From IMG/VR virus record IMGVR_UViG_3300048447_000253, positions 1 to 31,429 of that record: a stretch of DNA of 31,429 bases, one strand, 5' to 3'. Of this stretch, positions 15,013-27,360 are shown piece by piece (positions within the stretch are counted from its first letter, which is position 1; each line of letters begins with the position of its first letter). A model generated the notes under the pieces. It saw nothing but the letters and a program-made list of their open reading frames with translations. It was not told the origin of the DNA and searched no databases. The DNA is from a virus. Position numbers and translations under genes: made by a program.

Positions 15013-15036
15013 AAATTAGATCGTTAGTTGCTAGAA

Positions 15037-18000
15037 ATGCCCCAGAATACTAACTTAAACTCATCGCCTTACTTTGAAGATTTCGATCCTCAGAAAAATT
15101 TCTATAAGGTCTTATTCAGACCAGGGTTCGCAGTACAGACCAGAGAGTTAATTCAACTCCAATCTGTACTGCAGTCCCAATTAGAAAATTTCGGTAGGAA
15201 CGTCTTCAAGCAAGGCGATCTTGTTGTGCCTGGAGAAGTTGGTCTAAACGTTAGACTTAACTATGTTAAACTGTCGTCAGTTTCTGAAGTTGCGGTTGCC
15301 GATGATAGCGGCAATGTAACATATAAGAAATATGACATTAAAACTCTAATCGGTCTTAAACTGCAGGGTGTATCTTCTGGGGTAACTGCAAGTGTCATTG
15401 AAGTTGAATATGGTTCTGATACAGAATCAGATACCTTATATGTGAACTATCTTAATAGTGGTGCTTCTGGTGATGAAGAAAGATTTAGACAAGGCGAAAA
15501 CCTTGAAGTTATTGGTGGCGTAAATTCTCCACTACTAGTTGTTGGTACTGATGGGGTATCACTTCCAACTTCTATCGGTATTACTAATAGTGATACTGGT
15601 GCCACAGGTGTTATGGATAGTCCTGCTTTGGGTTATGCCTCAGCAGTTAAGGTAGAAGAAGGTATCTATTTTGCTAATGGATATTTTGTACGTAATGCAG
15701 CACAACTACTTGTAATCGACAAGTACTATGATAGACCATCTGCTAAAGTTGGTTTTAAAATTAATGAACTTCTTGTAACTCCAGAACAAGATGCATCTCT
15801 GTATGATAATTCCAGAGGTTCATCAAACTTCTCAGCACCTGGTGCTCACAGACTTAAAATTACATTATCACTGGTTAGATATGATTACTTCCAGTTAACT
15901 GATAAGAATTTCATTCAGTTGCTTCTTGTTAAAGATGGTGTCATCCAAAAGCAACTGAAAGCAACCGATTACTCATTGGTAGAAGCTGCGTTAGCAAGAA
16001 AAACATTTGACCAGTCTGGTGATTATGTTGTAGATGAATTTCCCATTCAAGTTAGGGAATACTATCAGAAAAATGACAATCTGGGTTTCTATTCTGCTGG
16101 TACTGACGGTTTAGTCAATGGTCTCACTGCTATTGATGCAGAGAAAAAATTAGTAGGTACTGTTGGTTCTGGTAAAGCATATGTAAAAGGATACGAAGTC
16201 AAAAACAAAGAGACTAAGTATATTGAAATTGATAAAGCAAGGGACGTTCTAAAGAGAGAGAACGAAACTATTAAGACTACTGGTCTTAGTTCTTTCTATG
16301 CTACTAATGTATATGGCACAATTCCTCTAAACGCTGAAGGCGCTGAACTGACTGCATATCCTACATTATATCTAAACAGTGTATTTAATGATGGTTCTGT
16401 TGGACTCAATAAGACAGAATCACCTGGAGATCCTAAGCGCACTATTTCAAGAAGGGGCGAAGGATTCACTGTCGAAGATGGAGTTAAAACTTTCTATTGT
16501 TCTATTGTAGACCCACAAAAAACAATTGCTGACTTTGATGATGACGCAATTGGAACAGAACTTACGAAACTTTGGTTTATTAAAACTAGAAGCGACAATG
16601 GTTCTATCAATACATATGGTTATGCTGATGTGGTTGCATTCTCTCAGGTTAAAAGACCTGAATTGGGTGGCAATACATATCTAGAAATTACGGTTAAAGG
16701 TAATCGTGCTGACCTAGATTTGTATCTCACAAACTTTGATAGCACTGATGCTACTGCACAAGTACGATACCTATTTCCAGGTGAAGCACAGGTACAGCAA
16801 AATACACAGCAATTGCTTCGTGTCCTAGATTACAACGAAACAATTACTCCAGTTATTGGTGTTGCTAAACCAAAGAATATTGCAATTGAAAATATCAGTG
16901 ACGGTTTTAATGCTGATACTGATAAGATTGTATCCAAAGGCAAGCTTGCTGGTGGTGTAGAGAAGTACAACACTGTTTTCGACTTATCATATTTTGCTCC
17001 TACATTCTTTACTAGAATCACACTAGAAACACTTGCAGATGCTACTTTTAGTTCTGGTAAGTACATTACTGGTACTGTTAGTGGAGCAAAGGCAGTTATT
17101 GAAGGTGGTACAGAAAGAGTGTACTCATCAACTAATAAGTTGTTTGTTGTTATGGTTTCTGGAACGTTTGTATCTGGAGAAACTATTGTTAATGAAGATG
17201 GGGTTACTGCTAAAATTGCCACAGAAAATACTGTCTCCCACTTTATCATTACAAATAGAGGTGGAAACTATACTTCAGCATCACAGTTTAAATTAGATGG
17301 TGTTCTCTATGACACCAACAAAATTGCTTGGGTTCGAGGTGGTGGTGGAACTATTCAGAATGTTTCTATTGAAGATAGAAATGCCGTAAGCACTACCTAT
17401 TCACAACCTCCTATTGTAGAAATTGAAACTACTGCAGTAATTACAGATGTTGCAAAAGTCACACCTGTTCTGTTTAGAGATACTGTATACACATTCGATC
17501 CTTCCAACGTTAAGTCTGTTAATACTACGTTTGGATCAGGAAACAAAAATTCATTCACCTGTGATATTGAACTAGAGAAAACAGGATACGTTTACACAAA
17601 TTCTGTTACAGACTTTACGTTTACTGGATTTGCTGGTTATAAGTTTATTGAATGTAACGGTTTTGGTGGAGACGCTAGTCTGTCTATAACTAAAGGCGAT
17701 ATTATCCAATTTGCTGATAATGATGGTGATGTATATCGTTACTCTGTACAATATGCAACCAAACCTGATGGTGTCAAAAGATCCAGACTTTACTTGGATA
17801 GAACACTACAAGCAGATGCTGTTAATGCTAGTGTTGTTGTACAGAAACCAATCATTACTAATGCCAATGGCACACTAGTATTCTCAACTGGAGATAAGAA
17901 AATTTCTTCATTGATTGATTCTAGTGAAGATTCTAAGATCACATATTATTTCCGAAGAGACTTTATTACGTCAGCATCTTCTGGAGCAGGTAATCTAACG

Positions 18001-21000
18001 TTTGCTGCTCAACTACCATTTGGTACACAAAGATTTGCTGAATTCAGTCAGAAAAATTTCATGATGACTGTATTGGATCCAGGTATTGCGATCCATGGTT
18101 TAGATACTGCTGGTAACTTTGTACCTAATGGTGGTACTCTCAACAAAGGTGATGTTGTTTATATCGATCCTGCGTTTGTTAAAATTACCCAGACTGATTC
18201 CGAACTAACTGCTGGTAGTGTTACTGTTGACTTCCCAGAGAATCATTTCGGTAATGTTGATAGTATTAGATCTAAGGCAGAAGCATATAACGTTGCTAAC
18301 CCAACTACAACGGTTGATCTACCCAATAACAACTTCCCAGTCCTTAAACTAACTGCTACATTGCAGGTATCCAAAGCACGTCCTAGACTTAAGACTTGTA
18401 TTAGAAATAAGCGTATCATTGTACAGGCAAGTGGAACTACAACCGTTCCATTTAGAGGACAGGATTATGATGGAGAAAACATTCAGATTACTTCATATGC
18501 TGATGCATTTAAGTTGAAGTATGTCTATGAAGGTTCTGTCTCTGCTCCTCCAACTATTGATTCTGTTGGTGGTTTGGTAACAGGTACTGATGTTACTTCT
18601 AGATATATCTTTGATGATGGTCAACGTGATACATACTACGATGTTTCTCGCATTACACTGAAACCTGGTCAAACTGCACCTTCAGGTCAGTTGGTTATTG
18701 CGTTCGATTACTTCGAGCATTCACAAGGAGATTTCTGTACGATTGATTCGTACCTCCATGAGGCAGGTGTACCTAATACCGAAGTTCCATCATTCAACTC
18801 TACTGTTAGTGGTCTCATCTCCCTGAGAGATGCTATCGACTTTAGACCTAAAGTAGACAACTCTAACATTGTTTCTGGTTACTTGGATAAAACAATCCTA
18901 TCCAGTAGTGGTTATATCTCTTTCTCAGGCACCGCTGGAATCCCCGCTAGCACCCCTGCAGACGATGCTAACCTAAGTTATACAGTTAAGTACAATAAAA
19001 CCCAATACCTGGACCGTATCGACGGGGTGTTCCTTGATACTCAAGGTAATTTTATTGTTAAGAAAGGCAATTCTTCACTGAATCCTTCCAGACCTGAATC
19101 TATCAGTGATGCTATTTCACTATACTATCTGTATGTTCCTGCATATACTGACTCTAATAGAGATGTGAGAATCATTCCTGTAGAGAACAAGCGTTACACA
19201 ATGAAGGACATTGGTAAACTTGACAGTAGAATTGAGAGACTAGAATACTACACTTCACTGAGTGTTCTAGAACAGCAAGCACTTAATATGCAGATCACTG
19301 ATGAAATTGGTCTTGATCGCTTTAAGTGTGGTTTCTTTGTAGATAATTTTGAAACTCATAGAGGTGATGTTAAATCTTTTGACCATAAATCTTCTATTGA
19401 TACTCAGCAGTCTGTCCTTAGACCACAAGTAAATGAAGAAAGTTTAAATGTAAAAGAAGTAAACACCAGAAACGATCAGCGTGAAGTTGATGGTTATGTA
19501 ATTAACAACGGTGTTATCTCACTTCCATATAGTGAAGTTAAACTGGTAGGAAATAATTTTGCTACTAAGACAATTAACCCCAATCCATTTGTTGTCCTAC
19601 AATACGTTGGCGATCTAGATATTACACCTAGAGTTGATTCTTGGTATGATAGATCAATTGTACCTCTAGTTACTGATAACAATACAAATCTATTTGTTCC
19701 TTTCCTTGCCAAGGATGATGTTGTGGAGGCATTCTCATGCATTTATAACTCATTTATTGTAACATGGTCTGGAGCAGAAAGATCATTCTTCAATATCAAT
19801 CCACTATCTACTACAAATAGTGAGGTATCTAATTCCAGAATTGAATCTGCATCAGTTTCTAGTTCTTCAAACATTAGTCCACAGAATAATGAGACACCTA
19901 AAGGTGTTGCAACTAGTAGCAGACGTGGCAAGCAAATTGTAACTTCACTGAAGTATTTTGCTCGCAGCATCCCTGTTAAATTTACTATTCGTAGAATGAA
20001 ACCAAAGACTGAAGTCTTTGTATATCTCGAAGGAAAGAATGTTGGTAGATGGGTCGCACCCGACTCTAGATTTACAGGAATTGCAGGTAACTCTGTTTCG
20101 GCATTTGCAGCACCAATTATTACAGATGAAAGAGGCAATGCTTCTGGTGTTTTAATTGTTCCTGCTGGAGCTCCTCCAACATTTGCTACTACTTGGACAG
20201 GTGATGTATCTACAGTCTCATATGATGAGAGCGGTGAAGATATCAGAATTACTACAGGCGAAAAGACTTTACGTTTTACATCTAGCAGTACTAATTCAGA
20301 CAAGAACGCTGTAGAAACTTTTGCTGAGACTAAGTTCTATGCATCTGGTTTGCTTCCCGATAATCCTACATCTATTATTTCGACACAACCAGCATACTTC
20401 AAAGCAAATGAAGGTTTGCAGTTAGTTCAAAATAATACAGAGCAAGAACAGAAACCAAATCCTTTGGCACAAACTTTCAAGATTGAAGGTTTTGAAGGTG
20501 GTGTATTTACCACTGGTCTTGATCTATTCTTTGCTGAAAAGAGTGATACAGTTCCTTTGCGTGTTTACCTCACAGATGTTGAGTCAGAAAAACCAGGCAA
20601 GAACATTGTTCCAGGAACAGAAATTGTTATGGAACCCTATACTTATTTGAAAGTATACTTCTCTAATACTGTCACTGTTCTGAAAGGTGAAACTCTCACT
20701 GGCATCAATTCAAATGCTTCTGGTCCTATCCTTAAGATTTTTGATAAGAACGACAACGAAGTTACTATCTCCGAAGATAATGAGATTACATTAACAAACG
20801 AACAGGTCTATACTATTGTTCTTTCTAATCATAACGGTATCAACTTTACTCCAGATGAACGTTTAAGTATTGCTTCTATTATTACTTTCAATAATGCTAA
20901 CAATACCGAAATTGTTTCAAGAATTGCAAAAGATTCTGGTGTTGTATCTGCTATCAATATCACCAACGTTGGTGATAACTATGACAGTGCTTCAGTAACT

Positions 21001-23307
21001 ATTGAAAGTCCTAGTCTTCCAGGTGGAAACAATGCTACTGCAGCTGTATTTGTATCTGATAGCAAAATCTATGATTCTTTACTTACACTAGGAGGCAGAG
21101 GATATACCGAACCACCTTCTGTTGTTATTAGAGGTACAGGTACTGGTAATAGTGGTGCCGTAATCGAAACTGAAATTTCTATCACAGAACCAGCAGTTAG
21201 AATGGGTATTGCTGTTGACACAGTTGGTAATGTACCTTCTGTTGTTGCCACTAAGTTTGAGTTTAATTACCCTGTATATCTTCTCAATAATACTGAGTAT
21301 GCTCTAACAATTGAAACAGATTCTCAGGACTATTTAATCTGGGCATCTAAACTAGGTGAAACTGAGGTTGCAACTAGTACTACTGTTACGACCAATCCAT
21401 CTTTGGGTTCTGTATATAAATCACAAAATACTAATAACTGGGTAGAAGATTTGTTTGAGGATGTCAAGTTTACTCTGTATCGTGCAGAGTTTGATACGAC
21501 TAAAGATGCACAAGTTGAGATTAAGAATACTCCTCTTGGATACAATACCATGCAGGTAGATCCTCTAGAGACATATGCATTCGCTAATGCCAATGCTACT
21601 TCATCTTTGTTTAAGAATAATAACAATATTATTAAGGTATCACATAAGAATCATGGGTTTGAAGAAGATCAATCTTATGTTTTCTTTAGAAATTTAGTCT
21701 CTACTGCTGGATTTACTCAAGGTACTCTTAATAGTTCTTTGTTTAAAGTATCCAATGTAGGTGTTGATACTTTCACGGTCAGTGGAATTGGTAGAGCAGC
21801 AGACAGTATTTTTGGTGGTGGTTCAACTGGTTTGATTGCTGCCAATAAAAAGTATGAAAGATTGCTTGCTCAGATTTCTTACATTCAGACACCAGGAACA
21901 AATATTGATACTGAAGTCAAGACTACTAATATTATTCCTATTGACTCTAATACTCTAAACTACAATTCATATTCTGTATCGAATTATGAGAAAACTTTCT
22001 TGAATGAAGAACAGTTCTTTATCAACCAGAAAGTAATTGCTTCTGGAGTAAACCAATTGATGAACAATTTAGATAATTCATTGGTATACAAACTGAGTCT
22101 TTCTACAACTAAGTCTTATCTCTCACCTGTTATTGATTTAAACAACTCAACCATTAAAATTTCTACTAATAGAATTGAAAATGCTGGTGGTAGCGAAGGT
22201 AGATATGGTAAGAGATATCAACTCATTGAGTTGTATCCTGTTTATAAGTTTAATATTTCTGGCAATGTAGATCCAGATTCAGGTTTAATTATTCCTATTA
22301 CTGCTGGACAGACAGTCAATGGTATTGGAAACGATGCATTGAACATTGATCAGTCAGCAGCAAGCGGTGAAGTTGTACGATATGAATCTACTGGCAATAC
22401 AGTATATGTTAAAGTTAAAAACAATAGTGTATATCGCGGTGACGAAAACCTATACTTCTCACAACAATCATCTGAAAATGGTTCTTTAGGTAGTTCTAGT
22501 GTTGACCAAGATGGTAATCCAGTGTGGACACCATATACAATTACAATTTCTTCCAGTGGTCCTTTGGTTGAAAAACCAAATTTCGATTATAGAGAACTGA
22601 TTACTGCTACAAATCCATCTAATGTAACAGAAACATATGATAATTTAATTTCTGGTACGACTGAATTGTGGGATGCTCCTACACAAGTATTGAAGTTGGA
22701 AAATGATAGACAACCTATCAACAACAATTACACTGCTGACAATGGATCATCTGTATATGCGAGAGCACAGCAAATTGCTGATCAACCATCGGACATCTTT
22801 AGAGTAGGTGATCTAATTAATTCTCCATCTATTAGAGTTGGATTTGAAAACTTCTTTGAAATTAAGAAGATTAATTATACTGATGGTATTGACTATGTTT
22901 CTGAAGACAGCACTTTAGATAGTTCTGCTATTGCTAAGTATGTAACAAAAGAAATTATTCTGGACAAATCTGCTACAGCAATTGACGTTATTATTACCGC
23001 AAATCTTACTGACACTAAGAATGTTAAGATGCTATATAAAACCAAGACTACTTCGGTACAGTCTAAGTTTGATGACATTGAATGGATTCTATTCAATGAA
23101 ACAGGATACCCAGATGAGATAAAAGTTGCTACTCCACAGAATGCAATTTCTGCACAAAAAGAAGAGCAATCTGCATATCAAGAATTCAGATATAGTATTA
23201 ATACTTTAGATGAATTTACTTCATTCGGTATCAAAATTGCTATGCAAACAGATGATCCAGCATTTGTTCCTAAGATTCAAGATATTAGGGTGGTGTCGTC
23301 AAGATGA
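15037..23307 (+). CDS. Giant DUF4815-like virion protein (2756 residues)
   Basis: The start is taken as ATG 15037 because the product then begins MPQNTNLNSSPYFEDFDP, the usual beginning of this family; a TTG nine bases upstream is less likely. Residues ~10-70 (NFYKVLFRPGFAVQTREL, QLENFGRNVFKQG) are the DUF4815 N-terminal signature. Later marks are DDGQRDTYYDVSRITLK (~1193-1209), HSQGDFCTIDSY, LDSRIERLEYYTSLSVLE (~1395-1412), FKCGFFVDNF, PLAQTF (~1809) with GGVFTTGLDLFF, FNYPVYLLNNTEYAL, and the end PKIQDIRVVSSR. GxGY units (GGRGYTEPP, ~2020) interrupt the region after PLAQTF, and a KNHGF unit lies near 2200. Members are structural proteins of marine T4-like phages, probably peripheral baseplate or fibre base; no enzyme motif is seen. 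The C-terminus overlaps the next start (ATGATGA). Confidence 0.9.
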   Translation: MPQNTNLNSSPYFEDFDPQKNFYKVLFRPGFAVQTRELIQLQSVLQSQLENFGRNVFKQGDLVVPGEVGLNVRLNYVKLSSVSEVAVADDSGNVTYKKYDIKTLIGLKLQGVSSGVTASVIEVEYGSDTESDTLYVNYLNSGASGDEERFRQGENLEVIGGVNSPLLVVGTDGVSLPTSIGITNSDTGATGVMDSPALGYASAVKVEEGIYFANGYFVRNAAQLLVIDKYYDRPSAKVGFKINELLVTPEQDASLYDNSRGSSNFSAPGAHRLKITLSLVRYDYFQLTDKNFIQLLLVKDGVIQKQLKATDYSLVEAALARKTFDQSGDYVVDEFPIQVREYYQKNDNLGFYSAGTDGLVNGLTAIDAEKKLVGTVGSGKAYVKGYEVKNKETKYIEIDKARDVLKRENETIKTTGLSSFYATNVYGTIPLNAEGAELTAYPTLYLNSVFNDGSVGLNKTESPGDPKRTISRRGEGFTVEDGVKTFYCSIVDPQKTIADFDDDAIGTELTKLWFIKTRSDNGSINTYGYADVVAFSQVKRPELGGNTYLEITVKGNRADLDLYLTNFDSTDATAQVRYLFPGEAQVQQNTQQLLRVLDYNETITPVIGVAKPKNIAIENISDGFNADTDKIVSKGKLAGGVEKYNTVFDLSYFAPTFFTRITLETLADATFSSGKYITGTVSGAKAVIEGGTERVYSSTNKLFVVMVSGTFVSGETIVNEDGVTAKIATENTVSHFIITNRGGNYTSASQFKLDGVLYDTNKIAWVRGGGGTIQNVSIEDRNAVSTTYSQPPIVEIETTAVITDVAKVTPVLFRDTVYTFDPSNVKSVNTTFGSGNKNSFTCDIELEKTGYVYTNSVTDFTFTGFAGYKFIECNGFGGDASLSITKGDIIQFADNDGDVYRYSVQYATKPDGVKRSRLYLDRTLQADAVNASVVVQKPIITNANGTLVFSTGDKKISSLIDSSEDSKITYYFRRDFITSASSGAGNLTFAAQLPFGTQRFAEFSQKNFMMTVLDPGIAIHGLDTAGNFVPNGGTLNKGDVVYIDPAFVKITQTDSELTAGSVTVDFPENHFGNVDSIRSKAEAYNVANPTTTVDLPNNNFPVLKLTATLQVSKARPRLKTCIRNKRIIVQASGTTTVPFRGQDYDGENIQITSYADAFKLKYVYEGSVSAPPTIDSVGGLVTGTDVTSRYIFDDGQRDTYYDVSRITLKPGQTAPSGQLVIAFDYFEHSQGDFCTIDSYLHEAGVPNTEVPSFNSTVSGLISLRDAIDFRPKVDNSNIVSGYLDKTILSSSGYISFSGTAGIPASTPADDANLSYTVKYNKTQYLDRIDGVFLDTQGNFIVKKGNSSLNPSRPESISDAISLYYLYVPAYTDSNRDVRIIPVENKRYTMKDIGKLDSRIERLEYYTSLSVLEQQALNMQITDEIGLDRFKCGFFVDNFETHRGDVKSFDHKSSIDTQQSVLRPQVNEESLNVKEVNTRNDQREVDGYVINNGVISLPYSEVKLVGNNFATKTINPNPFVVLQYVGDLDITPRVDSWYDRSIVPLVTDNNTNLFVPFLAKDDVVEAFSCIYNSFIVTWSGAERSFFNINPLSTTNSEVSNSRIESASVSSSSNISPQNNETPKGVATSSRRGKQIVTSLKYFARSIPVKFTIRRMKPKTEVFVYLEGKNVGRWVAPDSRFTGIAGNSVSAFAAPIITDERGNASGVLIVPAGAPPTFATTWTGDVSTVSYDESGEDIRITTGEKTLRFTSSSTNSDKNAVETFAETKFYASGLLPDNPTSIISTQPAYFKANEGLQLVQNNTEQEQKPNPLAQTFKIEGFEGGVFTTGLDLFFAEKSDTVPLRVYLTDVESEKPGKNIVPGTEIVMEPYTYLKVYFSNTVTVLKGETLTGINSNASGPILKIFDKNDNEVTISEDNEITLTNEQVYTIVLSNHNGINFTPDERLSIASIITFNNANNTEIVSRIAKDSGVVSAINITNVGDNYDSASVTIESPSLPGGNNATAAVFVSDSKIYDSLLTLGGRGYTEPPSVVIRGTGTGNSGAVIETEISITEPAVRMGIAVDTVGNVPSVVATKFEFNYPVYLLNNTEYALTIETDSQDYLIWASKLGETEVATSTTVTTNPSLGSVYKSQNTNNWVEDLFEDVKFTLYRAEFDTTKDAQVEIKNTPLGYNTMQVDPLETYAFANANATSSLFKNNNNIIKVSHKNHGFEEDQSYVFFRNLVSTAGFTQGTLNSSLFKVSNVGVDTFTVSGIGRAADSIFGGGSTGLIAANKKYERLLAQISYIQTPGTNIDTEVKTTNIIPIDSNTLNYNSYSVSNYEKTFLNEEQFFINQKVIASGVNQLMNNLDNSLVYKLSLSTTKSYLSPVIDLNNSTIKISTNRIENAGGSEGRYGKRYQLIELYPVYKFNISGNVDPDSGLIIPITAGQTVNGIGNDALNIDQSAASGEVVRYESTGNTVYVKVKNNSVYRGDENLYFSQQSSENGSLGSSSVDQDGNPVWTPYTITISSSGPLVEKPNFDYRELITATNPSNVTETYDNLISGTTELWDAPTQVLKLENDRQPINNNYTADNGSSVYARAQQIADQPSDIFRVGDLINSPSIRVGFENFFEIKKINYTDGIDYVSEDSTLDSSAIAKYVTKEIILDKSATAIDVIITANLTDTKNVKMLYKTKTTSVQSKFDDIEWILFNETGYPDEIKVATPQNAISAQKEEQSAYQEFRYSINTLDEFTSFGIKIAMQTDDPAFVPKIQDIRVVSSR
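20932..21186 (+). repeat. GxGY repeat pair in the DUF4815-like giant
   Basis: NVGDNYDSASVTIES and LGGRGYTEPPSVVIRGTGTG form two adjacent units of the same repeat that occurs in the gp7-like protein, gp8, the fibre protein and the right-edge protein. They sit between the PLAQTF block and the YPVYLLNN block of the family, so they look like an insertion. Confidence 0.6.
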
Positions 23308-23486
23308 TGAAAGTCCAGGGTCACGACCATCTTTATCGTGACCCCAATACTGGTGCGATAATTAACACACAAACTCCACCTTCTAAAGTATTATCTTCTG
23401 CCATAAATGACATAAATACTTTGAAGAAAGAACTATATGAAATTAAACAACTCTTAAAAGAGATAGTACGAAATGGGAATTCTTAG
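23304..23486 (+). CDS. Small conserved-looking phage protein with C-terminal coiled coil (60 residues)
   Basis: The start is ATG 23304 or ATG 23307, both in frame in ATGATG; the first overlaps the TGA of the upstream gene. The N-terminal half, VQGHDHLYRDPNTGAIINTQ, resembles short proteins I recall from marine T4-like phages. The C-terminal half (INDINTLKKELYEIKQLLKEIV) has a leucine/isoleucine heptad pattern, so it probably forms a coiled coil, perhaps trimeric. It lies between two giant virion genes and overlaps the next gene by 14 bases, which suggests a small trimeric connector or chaperone. That role is an inference. Confidence 0.8.
   Translation: MMKVQGHDHLYRDPNTGAIINTQTPPSKVLSSAINDINTLKKELYEIKQLLKEIVRNGNS
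23411..23418 (+). promoter_or_regulatory. Possible late promoter (CATAAATA) for the fibre gene
   Basis: CATAAATA matches the T4 late consensus in seven of eight positions and lies 55 bases before the ATG at 23473. It sits inside the coding region of the 60-residue gene. Marine T4-like phages are known to tolerate a change in the first base. Being intragenic lowers the confidence. Confidence 0.4.
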
Positions 23487-26400
23487 AAACGTAGCTAAAT
23501 CTGACACCTTTGAACGTCAAAGGCAAACTATCAACCAGATTGCTCAAGATATTTACAATCTTGGTGGTGGTGGATCTGATTTGTCTACTGGTCTTCTAAG
23601 ACTTGGAAATGGAAGTAGAACAGAACCTTCATTGTCATTTGCAAATGACACATCGGTTGGTATCTATAGACCAGACACAAAGAAACTGGCATTTGTAAAT
23701 GATGGCAAAAAACTACAGCAGTTGCAGAACGAAGCATCGCTGTTTTATAGAAATTTAATTCTACAAAAAAATATTCTTCACAGTGAAGGTTTATCCATCA
23801 CTGCTAAAGGTCAAGATTATGATGAGGGATCTTATCAAGATATTGCCGCTATTGGTGGTACTGGTCAGGCAGGAACATTAGACCTAACAGTATCTGGTTT
23901 TGATGGAACTACAACTCCTGGTTCTGGATATACTTACGTATCTGGTGGACTTGGTGGTGGTGGTACAGAATCATACCAAGGAGTTCAATTAGTTGGTGGT
24001 AACGGTTCTGGTATTGAAGTCGAAGTTGTTCATGAATCTGGTTCATTTACATCTACAGTAGTATCTGATTATGGATCGGGATATCAAATAAATGACGTTT
24101 TAACATTACCAGTACAAGTAACTGGTGCTACTGGTACTGCAGATTCAGGTGGTAGTACTATTGTGATGTCCAGTAATGCTGGAATGTTTACTGGATGGAC
24201 TTGGACACAAACTGGAGGAACTGCTACATTTGATCCCCCAACAGACCTTGATGGTAACGCCGAACCAATTATCGTTCAAACTGTTGACGATTTAAGTGGA
24301 ACTGATATTGATATCAACGGAACTTGTACCGCTACTGGTACGGTAACGTTTACTCTTACTCCACCGTGGGGTAATGGTGGTTCTGGATATGCATTTACAA
24401 TTGATGTTCTTGGTATTATCACAGAAGCTACTGTAAATCAAGCAGGTGAAGGTTACTCTGTTGGAGATACTTTAAGTATCTTTAATTTAGATCTAACAGC
24501 AGCAATTCCTTATCTTGTAACAACAGTACAATACATTAAACCTGTTTTTGATGCAACTGTTCCATCAGGAACTTTTGTGGCAGGTCAAAATTATAATTTC
24601 TCACAGGAAGATGCATTAAATCCAGGAACATTTGCTAATGTTGCTGTAGTATGTGAAGAAGTATATGACAATGGATCTGAAATTGTCACAGTTACTTTTA
24701 CTATGGTTGATACGAACGAATCTATCAACCAAGGAGATTTGTTTGGTTCTCTAGAAGTTACTGAGATTTCTAGTCCTAATAGATTCCTCATCGATCTGGA
24801 TGAAGCAGATGCTGGCACTGATCCATTTCTATATCCAGACTTAACTCTATTTGTTAATAACAAATATGAATTTGATTGGTCTAATGCATCTAGTCACCCA
24901 TTTAGATTCTCTATCCACCCTGATGGTATTCACAACAAATATGAAGAAAGTATAACTGTTGTTGAAGATTCGCTTACTATTACAGTATCGGATGCTTCTT
25001 CTATTTTAGTTGGAATGACTGTCGTTAAAGATACTGAAAATGCAGGTCTTAATGATAGCGGTGATGTGGATGGGGAGGCAGTTGTAGAAGCAGTTAATGG
25101 TAATGTAATTACTCTAAGTGCTCCAGTTACTAGTTCTGGTACTATGCCAGTTATTATTGCTGGTGTAAAGTATGAAGGTTCTGAAGTAGACTATGATGAT
25201 AGTAATAGCAAGACTACTATTGCTGGAAATGATGCAACCCCAACAACGCTATATTACTACTGCGAAGTCCACCCAAACATGGCAGGTTTGACTGGTCAAC
25301 GTGCTGAAGTAACCATTGATCCTAATAATACTAAAGTATTTGGTAGTGGTTTTCAACTTCTAGTAACGTCAATTGTTTCAACAGATAATGTTACTCTAGA
25401 TGTAAGTAGTGGCGGTGTAACTGCTTTAGTGGTTACTGCAGATGATGTTCAATCCACAACTGCTACTATACCTACAATAGATGTAGAAGAACTGAACGTT
25501 GATACTGATGGTAAGGTTAATACAGAATATATTCTGTCTCCTACATCAATGAAGATTGAAACTACTGGTCTTTTGAGTCCATTCAATCTTAAAACTGCAA
25601 AAGTTAATTTCACAACTCCAGGTTCAACTGATCTAGTAAACATTGAAATTTTTACTGACACTGGAGATGTAGTTACATCGGGTCAATTCAAAACTACTGG
25701 AGTATTTAATTCCAGTGATCTACTAAAGATCGATGGTAATAAAATTGAAGCACAGGGTACTAGCGATCTTCTTTTAGATCCTGCACCAAATAGAGTTGCT
25801 ATCATTGGTGGTACACAGGCATTACAAATTCCTGCAGGTAACACTGCTGCTCGTCCTGCACTTGGTCTGACTAATGATGGTGCTATTAGATATAACACCC
25901 AGACTACTCAGTATGAAGGTTATAGTTCAGCAACTACTTCTTGGTCTTCTCTTGGAGGAATTCGAGATCTAGACGGTAATACTTATATTACTGCAGAAGA
26001 ATCGGTTGGTGCTAATGATGATACTTTCTACATCTATAACGGTAATAGTAATACCTTAAAAATTACTCCAACAAAATTTAAGTTTGAAGAATTAAAGCAG
26101 ATTGCATCTCTCAATACATCTGCTCCAACATATACTGAATGGTTCTCTAACACACCTGTAACTCTAGGTCAATACCTCAAGCACAGAAATAACATTTATG
26201 AAGTAACTGTTGCTGGCATTACTGCTACTGATGGCAATGCTCCAACGCATACAACAGGTGCTCAACCAAACAATACTTCAGAACTGACATTTTACACTAC
26301 GGCAGTAGGAAATCTTCTATTCCAAGAAATTGATGAAGTACAAATTGACCCATTTGGTGATACATATCTAACTGTATCTGGAGATCTGAGACTCAGAAAT

Positions 26401-27360
26401 AATGTTGTTGCTACAGACATCAATGACTTGATTCTGAGACCTAATGCTGGTAAGAAAGTTGTTGTTGATGCAACTAGTACGCTAGTTTTACCTGTTGGTA
26501 ATGAAAACGAAAGAGGTGCTGCCCAAACAGGTTCAGTAAGATTTAATACAACATCTCTACAGTATGAAGGTTATGACGGCAATAACTGGGGTTCTCTTGG
26601 TGGCGTCAAAGACGTTGATCAGAACACCTATATCATTCCTGAGACTGCACCTGGTGCCAACGAAAATATTCTTTACTTCTACAACAACGGTGTTAACACC
26701 GTCCAGTTAAGTACGTCTTCACTTGACCTGACAAATATTGATAGTATTACTTCAATCAATAATACATCTCTCGGATTTGAATTTAAGACACTTACTGCAG
26801 ATAATGGTTCTACTGTTCTACAGAACACATCTGCTGATGAGACTTTCCTTTACAACACCAAACAATACTTTAAGTTTGGTATGTCAGCAGGTCTTACAGT
26901 TGACCCACTGGTTGTCCTAGAAGATAATGGAGATATTTTCTACAATACAGGATTTGGTACTGGTAACGAAACTCCACTCAAATTATTGAATTCTAGTCTC
27001 ACTGACTTTGAACTAAAAGATTATAAGGTACAGACTAGTACACTTGAACTTGTAAAAGGTACACTTGATGTTGGTTCAGCACTTCTTTATAATACTACAA
27101 CATCTAAAGGTTGTAAATTGATGGTAATTTTGGAGAATACTATTTCCAATAAATCATCGTTCATGGAATTCAATGTTATTGATGATGGTACTGAAGTATT
27201 CTATAACGAATACGCTGGTGTAAATACTAGTGAAGATGCTGCAACTGCAGTATTTGATATTGACGTTGATAACAACGCTAGAATTACATTTACATTGACT
27301 GAAGATCATACTCTTAATGATAATATTAAAATCACTGTTGTTGCTCAAATTCTAAAGTAA
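23473..27360 (+). CDS. Tail-fibre-like protein with nested cupredoxin-like module (1295 residues)
   Basis: The start ATG overlaps the previous gene by 14 bases and has AGAGA about 10 bases upstream. Order of parts: a helical start and Gly run (~1-40); a fibre motif SFANDTSVGIYRPDTKKLAF (~55-75); GxGY-rich and Gly-rich beta region (~115-340); a cupredoxin-like module (~437-616) with His475 and C597-x2-H600-x2-M603; then a tandem pair of fibre repeats (~764-869 and ~984-1084) carrying IRYNTQTTQYEGY and VRFNTTSLQYEGY with SLGG. A WFSN...NAPTHTTG module (~890-941) lies between them, and the C-terminal beta domain has DGTEVFYNEY near residue 1240. These are typical of marine phage fibres and appendages. 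It presumably forms a trimeric host-contact part attached to the baseplate. Which T4 fibre gene it replaces is unknown. Confidence 0.88.
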   Translation: MGILRNVAKSDTFERQRQTINQIAQDIYNLGGGGSDLSTGLLRLGNGSRTEPSLSFANDTSVGIYRPDTKKLAFVNDGKKLQQLQNEASLFYRNLILQKNILHSEGLSITAKGQDYDEGSYQDIAAIGGTGQAGTLDLTVSGFDGTTTPGSGYTYVSGGLGGGGTESYQGVQLVGGNGSGIEVEVVHESGSFTSTVVSDYGSGYQINDVLTLPVQVTGATGTADSGGSTIVMSSNAGMFTGWTWTQTGGTATFDPPTDLDGNAEPIIVQTVDDLSGTDIDINGTCTATGTVTFTLTPPWGNGGSGYAFTIDVLGIITEATVNQAGEGYSVGDTLSIFNLDLTAAIPYLVTTVQYIKPVFDATVPSGTFVAGQNYNFSQEDALNPGTFANVAVVCEEVYDNGSEIVTVTFTMVDTNESINQGDLFGSLEVTEISSPNRFLIDLDEADAGTDPFLYPDLTLFVNNKYEFDWSNASSHPFRFSIHPDGIHNKYEESITVVEDSLTITVSDASSILVGMTVVKDTENAGLNDSGDVDGEAVVEAVNGNVITLSAPVTSSGTMPVIIAGVKYEGSEVDYDDSNSKTTIAGNDATPTTLYYYCEVHPNMAGLTGQRAEVTIDPNNTKVFGSGFQLLVTSIVSTDNVTLDVSSGGVTALVVTADDVQSTTATIPTIDVEELNVDTDGKVNTEYILSPTSMKIETTGLLSPFNLKTAKVNFTTPGSTDLVNIEIFTDTGDVVTSGQFKTTGVFNSSDLLKIDGNKIEAQGTSDLLLDPAPNRVAIIGGTQALQIPAGNTAARPALGLTNDGAIRYNTQTTQYEGYSSATTSWSSLGGIRDLDGNTYITAEESVGANDDTFYIYNGNSNTLKITPTKFKFEELKQIASLNTSAPTYTEWFSNTPVTLGQYLKHRNNIYEVTVAGITATDGNAPTHTTGAQPNNTSELTFYTTAVGNLLFQEIDEVQIDPFGDTYLTVSGDLRLRNNVVATDINDLILRPNAGKKVVVDATSTLVLPVGNENERGAAQTGSVRFNTTSLQYEGYDGNNWGSLGGVKDVDQNTYIIPETAPGANENILYFYNNGVNTVQLSTSSLDLTNIDSITSINNTSLGFEFKTLTADNGSTVLQNTSADETFLYNTKQYFKFGMSAGLTVDPLVVLEDNGDIFYNTGFGTGNETPLKLLNSSLTDFELKDYKVQTSTLELVKGTLDVGSALLYNTTTSKGCKLMVILENTISNKSSFMEFNVIDDGTEVFYNEYAGVNTSEDAATAVFDIDVDNNARITFTLTEDHTLNDNIKITVVAQILK
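24781..25320 (+). other. Cupredoxin-like module with CxxHxxM and an inserted beta segment
   Basis: Residues ~437-616. The first half has YEFDWSNASSHPFRFSIHPD with His475, where I expect the first metal ligand. The second half has TLYYYCEVHPNMAG with Cys597, His600 and Met603. A His followed far downstream by Cys-x2-His-x2-Met is the order of ligands in small blue copper proteins such as plastocyanin. Between the halves a second beta module (~497-563, ITVSDASSILVGMTV to VITLSAPVTSSGT) is inserted. Metal binding is inferred. Confidence 0.6.
25762..26724 (+). repeat. Tandem duplication of a fibre module (offset 220 residues)
   Basis: SDLLLDPAPN...IPAGN...IRYNTQTTQYEGY...LGGIRDLDGNTYI...GANDDTFYIY at residues 764-869 aligns with NDLILRPNAG...LPVGN...VRFNTTSLQYEGY...LGGVKDVDQNTYI...GANENILYFY at 984-1084. 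The offset is 220 residues, falling to 215 after a short deletion. The first copy spans 25762-26079 and the second 26422-26724. Confidence 0.8.

Follow-up and report, generated by a model that had tools for sequence, protein, structure and literature searches.

A candidate insert-split cupredoxin-like domain in a virion structural protein of a T4-like cyanophage

The window, by which we mean the whole stretch of DNA analysed, is a viral record of 31,429 bases. Its genes have matches among baseplate wedge families and among large virion proteins, and the gene order around the open reading frame (ORF) considered here is that of Synechococcus myophages such as Sf-FP1, S-RIM44, S-RSM4 and S-PM2. 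Syntenic orthologs of the 1,295-aa product in Synechococcus myophages carry the annotation "virion structural protein", and the family that it matches, PHROG 6005, is filed under head and packaging. The PHROG matches together with the synteny with baseplate wedge genes place the ORF in a T4-like tail and baseplate cluster, and on this comparative evidence the assignment of its product as a virion structural protein from the baseplate region of a T4-like cyanophage is secure. A preliminary description of this DNA had called it a tail-fibre protein: the comparison supports a structural role among baseplate genes, with a fibre as the plausible or likely but less secure reading. We also noted a 60-aa ORF at 23304-23486 that overlaps both of its neighbours and is syntenic with the small gene T4-GC_112 of related phages, and a 2,759-aa ORF with a TTG start at 15028-23307 that matches PHROG 358 (function unknown) and whose counterparts in related phages are named baseplate wedge initiator gp7 or structural protein. 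The features of the locus are as follows.

23473-27360, plus strand: virion structural protein carrying the predicted site, 1,295 aa (PHROG 6005, E=0; ortholog of S-PM2 p086 and Sf-FP1 gene 86).
24757-25356, plus strand: predicted cupredoxin-like domain, residues 429-628, the unit that was aligned and modelled (122 distinct homologous domains; AlphaFold mean pLDDT 93.3, pTM 0.86).
24781-24939, plus strand: N-terminal half of the putative metal-site module, residues 437-489 (LTLFVNNKYEFDWSNASSHPFRFS); over this half the compact phage module aligned at Prob 99.5, E=1e-22 (hhalign).
24895-24897, plus strand: His475, first predicted ligand (in 87 of 87 homologs with a Cys-His loop; covariation with H600 and C597).
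24940-25191, plus strand: inserted beta module, residues 490-573, which splits the compact domain and is absent in the compact family.
25192-25320, plus strand: C-terminal half of the putative metal-site module, residues 574-616 (TTLYYYCEVHPNMAG...AEVTID), supported by the model, the compact-family alignment and hhalign.
25261-25263, plus strand: Cys597, predicted thiolate ligand at a strand end (DSSP strand 164-169 of the model stops here; invariant in the compact family).
25270-25272, plus strand: His600, predicted ligand in the loop that follows the Cys597 strand (model, conservation, covariation).
25279-25281, plus strand: Met603, predicted axial ligand (87 of 87 looped homologs have M or E following the loop His).

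Positions 24781-25320 code for residues 437-616 of the ORF, and its translation confirmed the placement of the four residues given in the preliminary description and their type 1 copper ligand order: His475 lies inside SSHPFRFS, and Cys597-x2-His600-x2-Met603 inside YYYCEVHPNMAG. When the protein was shuffled 20,000 times, C..H..M arose in 0.025% of the shuffles and a His with C..H..M 40-160 residues later in 0.005%; C..H..M occurs once only among the main ORFs of the window. The ligand order of cupredoxins, His...Cys-x(n)-His-x(n)-Met/Gln/Glu, is found in the window protein, in 87 of its 122 homologs and in a family of compact relatives. His475 and Cys597 are 122 aa apart, outside the range of about 35-75 residues taken for the distance from the first His to the Cys, because a module of about 84 residues is inserted between them.

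The compact relatives are modules of about 110 aa that occur without the insert in other copies of the protein family and in many other phage proteins. In an alignment of 52 such sequences, extending down to 25% identity, H38, C88 and H91 are invariant and M94 is conserved in at least 90%, and the His-Cys spacing is a plastocyanin-like 50. The window family stripped of residues 490-573 aligned to the compact family at Prob 99.8 and E 2.4e-27 (hhalign), and the insert alone matched neither cupredoxins nor the compact family. Judged from these alignments, the window domain is the compact module of about 110 aa with an insert of about 84 residues. The plastocyanin-like character first proposed for the site is upheld in part, by the ligand order and by the spacing of the compact relatives, but not by the spacing in the window protein itself. 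The insert (24940-25191) resembles further stretches, as partial matches, in homologous structural proteins, for example residues 502-638 and 723-812 of the L117 ORF, and its sequence gives it the look of a mobile or repeated unit. We also observed tandem pairs of compact modules, about 114 residues apart within one phage protein, in L146 (720-1397), L149, L153, L147 and L155.

Isolate genomes and IMG/VR together yielded 122 distinct copies of the domain. The Cys-His loop is present in 87 of them, all of which have His475; the 35 copies that lack the loop have lost His475 in 23 cases and kept it in 12 (Fisher 2e-16 for the association, with kinship ignored). The loop takes the form C-x2-H-x2-M in 49 copies, C-x5-H-x2-E in 15, C-x6-H-x2-E in 15 and C-x6-H-x2-M in six, with two further forms seen once each; every form ends in Met or Glu, and Glu replaces the axial Met in 30 of the 87 sites. 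Conservation of the four positions across homologs indicates that the ligand set did not arise by chance. Homologs that lack the site make up 29% of the total and still align over the whole domain. In L084, L132, L063, L102 and their relatives Glu takes the axial place of Met and the Cys-His loop is extended (x5 or x6), a combination reminiscent of the red copper protein nitrosocyanin.

In a phylogeny from which the ligand columns had been left out, the loop changed 10 times and His475 nine times; on the well-supported branches 3.4-3.7 of 4-5 independent loop/His pairs agreed and 0 opposed, which is too few for significance. Covariation was calculated as APC-corrected mutual information for the 17,766 column pairs with a separation of at least 12, under eight weighting and pseudocount settings. 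Across these settings H475-H600 ranked 1-2, H475-C597 ranked 3-5 and H475-M603 ranked 6-21 among all pairs, as a shared site with parts 122 residues apart in sequence should give. Where enough upstream sequence was available, at least one intact site was kept in 114 of 116 chains, and 33 of the 35 chains without a window-type site have an intact compact domain upstream. This retention (Fisher p 2.7e-7 without phylogeny) suggests selection for one site per chain, as far as sequence can indicate; a tree test was uninformative because the site was lost in lineages in which a second one was already present.

An AlphaFold model of the window domain, produced with 70 homologs, is nearly all beta, and the blocks that contain the four ligands have pLDDT values of 95-98. 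In the model His475 (model residue 47) directly precedes strand 49-52, Cys597 (model residue 169) closes strand 164-169, and His600 and Met603 are in the loop preceding strand 184-188. By sequence position along the predicted strands, the ligands are where a type 1 copper site would be expected to have them, and a model of the compact module (pLDDT 86.7) has the same ligand layout. The suggestion that the four residues form one site is thus supported by their joint loss, by their covariation and by their strand and loop positions in a confident model, and His475, Cys597, His600 and Met603 appear to behave as a single site.

Foldseek searches of the PDB returned no match at E<=0.001 for either the window model or the compact model. 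The top matches were phage proteins or Ig-like folds (Ig-like for the compact model), and against viral models Foldseek found chiefly relatives and phage proteins without a name. The cupredoxin AcoP of Acidithiobacillus ferrooxidans (7z3b, 7z3f, 7z3g and 7z3i) was among the top 50 matches of the window model, at ranks 11, 16, 17 and 43, with TM-scores of 0.19-0.31 that make it a lead only; it differs also in not being a virion protein. AcoP has a long Cys-His loop, like the C-x5-H and C-x6-H variants of the phage family. The preference of the compact model for Ig-like folds over cupredoxins would suit a metal-free reading, in which the site is a relic or has a non-metal role, His and Cys being conserved for packing of the domain or for an inter-chain disulfide, and so would the full-length alignment of the homologs that lack the site. 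However, packing or a disulfide would leave unexplained both an invariant Cys-His-Met that is lost jointly with a His 122 residues away and the alternation of Met and Glu at the axial place, and we consider this reading very improbable.

As a cupredoxin reference we used 18 sequences, comprising amicyanin, plastocyanin and 16 genomic Copper-bind proteins; the amicyanin and plastocyanin sequences are exact matches to PDB entries. With hhalign the compact family aligned to this reference with the ligands in register at Prob 86 and E 4.8e-6, and the insert-less window family at Prob 80 and E 1.4e-5. The corresponding scores were 36 and 34, against 19 or less in column-shuffled controls, from which one high-scoring control had been excluded as a 4-column alignment artefact. 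Masking the four ligand columns lowered the cupredoxin match from a score of 36 to 15, and the match is therefore mostly the site itself. On the sequence evidence the site would work like a cupredoxin site, whereas neither common descent with cupredoxins nor membership of their family follows from the match. Profile searches of the PDB returned plastocyanins weakly (E 0.39 and E 0.024), and in the latter search Ig-domain and antibody entries scored level with them; a direct sequence search of the PDB with the domain found nothing. No Pfam cupredoxin model scored above cut-off for the window domain or the compact members. Copper-bind reached E 0.077 in one of the 52 compact members and did not match the window domain, the matches below threshold included FixG_C, At5g54830 and Head_fiber_dimeric, and PF25489 had no match in the window search.

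Compared with amicyanin and plastocyanin (PF00127 Copper-bind), the phage domain has the same ligand types in the same order, the first His likewise comes just before a strand and the Cys at a strand end, and the C-x2-H-x2-M loop spacing of the window protein is identical to that of amicyanin CTPHPFM. Unlike them, the phage site is located in a 1,295-aa virion protein, is split by an insert of about 84 residues and has no similarity detectable outside the ligands. From the sequence comparisons and the models taken together, we consider it probable that residues 429-628 form an insert-split, cupredoxin-like beta-sandwich that acts as a copper-binding stabilising module in a virion protein of the baseplate or fibre region, and we infer that His475, Cys597, His600 and Met603 bind one copper ion. 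The ion would be acquired inside the host or, once lysis has occurred, from sea water, and would link the loop of His475 to the loop carrying Cys597, His600 and Met603. The linked loops could then lock one end of the domain and leave the appendage stiffened or protected. We favour stabilisation over electron transfer or sensing, since homologs that have lost the site keep the fold and both the axial ligand and the length of the loop are free to vary.

The same four residues might instead bind zinc or iron in a purely structural role, with no type 1 copper chemistry. On this view zinc is the likelier ion, because little free copper is available in the cytoplasm in which the phage is assembled, and zinc is the main rival to copper. 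Structural metal ions are known in phage fibres, as with iron in T4 gp37 (cited in PMC11705849), and the axial Glu found in 30 of the 87 sites would suit zinc as well. Nevertheless, the textbook copper set is a Cys, a pair of His and an axial Met ordered and spaced as they are here, down to identity with the amicyanin loop, and zinc would not need the Met that the compact family conserves in at least 90% of its members. We regard zinc or iron as unlikely, and copper as the probable metal of the site.

The nearest published idea is that of iron-binding HxH sites in phage fibres, described for T4 gp37 and Alteromonas phage R22Y (PMC11705849). These fibres resemble the present candidate in having a metal site in a phage appendage and a proposed marine role for the metal, but they use paired His, and no HxH motif (two His two apart) occurs in the 1,295-aa window protein. 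The domain and its compact relatives belong to PHROG 6005, 30742, 677 and 27200, whose descriptions go no further than virion structural, tail fiber, connector or unknown and note no metal site; PHROG 30742 (tail fiber protein) was matched by all 52 compact members. A search confined to the open-access literature found no description of a cupredoxin or blue copper site in a phage virion.

The preliminary description had mentioned related YYYCxxHxxM segments in other marine phage fibres, and these proved to be real and common: 286 of 50,697 isolate phage records contain the compact module, under names that give Synechococcus, Prochlorococcus, Pelagibacter and Methylophilales as hosts, and it occurs also in hundreds of environmental contigs. 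Module proteins in the isolates are annotated as structural, tail fiber or hypothetical. This distribution bears on the possibility of a redox or host-contact device, in which copper would shuttle between the Cu(I) and Cu(II) states or the host surface would recognise the domain in its copper-loaded form. The idea draws on analogy with the iron-based Trojan (Ferrojan) Horse proposal, and it fits a module known to date from marine phages, among them phages of copper-using cyanobacteria, and from appendage-type proteins of which nearly every chain retains one site. Exposure of the site, a redox partner and a receptor are all without support, however, and occurrence in phages of Pelagibacter and Methylophilales means that the module is not tied to plastocyanin-using hosts. 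Such a device seems to us a distant prospect beside a copper-bound stabilising module.

More broadly, and tentatively, marine phages may carry widespread blue-copper-like appendage domains, which would make their virions copper proteins whose appendages copper stabilises or arms, and would make the phages an uncounted copper ligand in the sea; we would put this somewhat below an even prospect. If copper is bound, a common virion module of marine phages would be a type of metalloprotein new to phage particles, within the open-access literature, and a concrete copper counterpart to the idea of iron in phage tails. Copper binding would likewise explain an extensive motif that lacks annotation in the genomes of ocean phages, and would suggest that phage stability or infectivity depends on sea-water copper.

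The module was also matched on bacterial contigs, five of which were looked at by eye; three of these (L187, L195 and L205) were phage-like by their neighbouring ORFs, and at least some of the bacterial-contig matches are phages captured along with single cells. In a SAR116 single-cell genome (L188, QCQB01000001.1) the compact module is in a 373-aa ORF near an apparent host nusG gene, and here it may belong to an integrated element rather than a free phage. The 189 kb contig of Prochlorococcus AG-418-C09 (L205) resembles a cyanomyovirus genome in its length and in the type of its genes, and probably represents a phage that was sorted with the cell.
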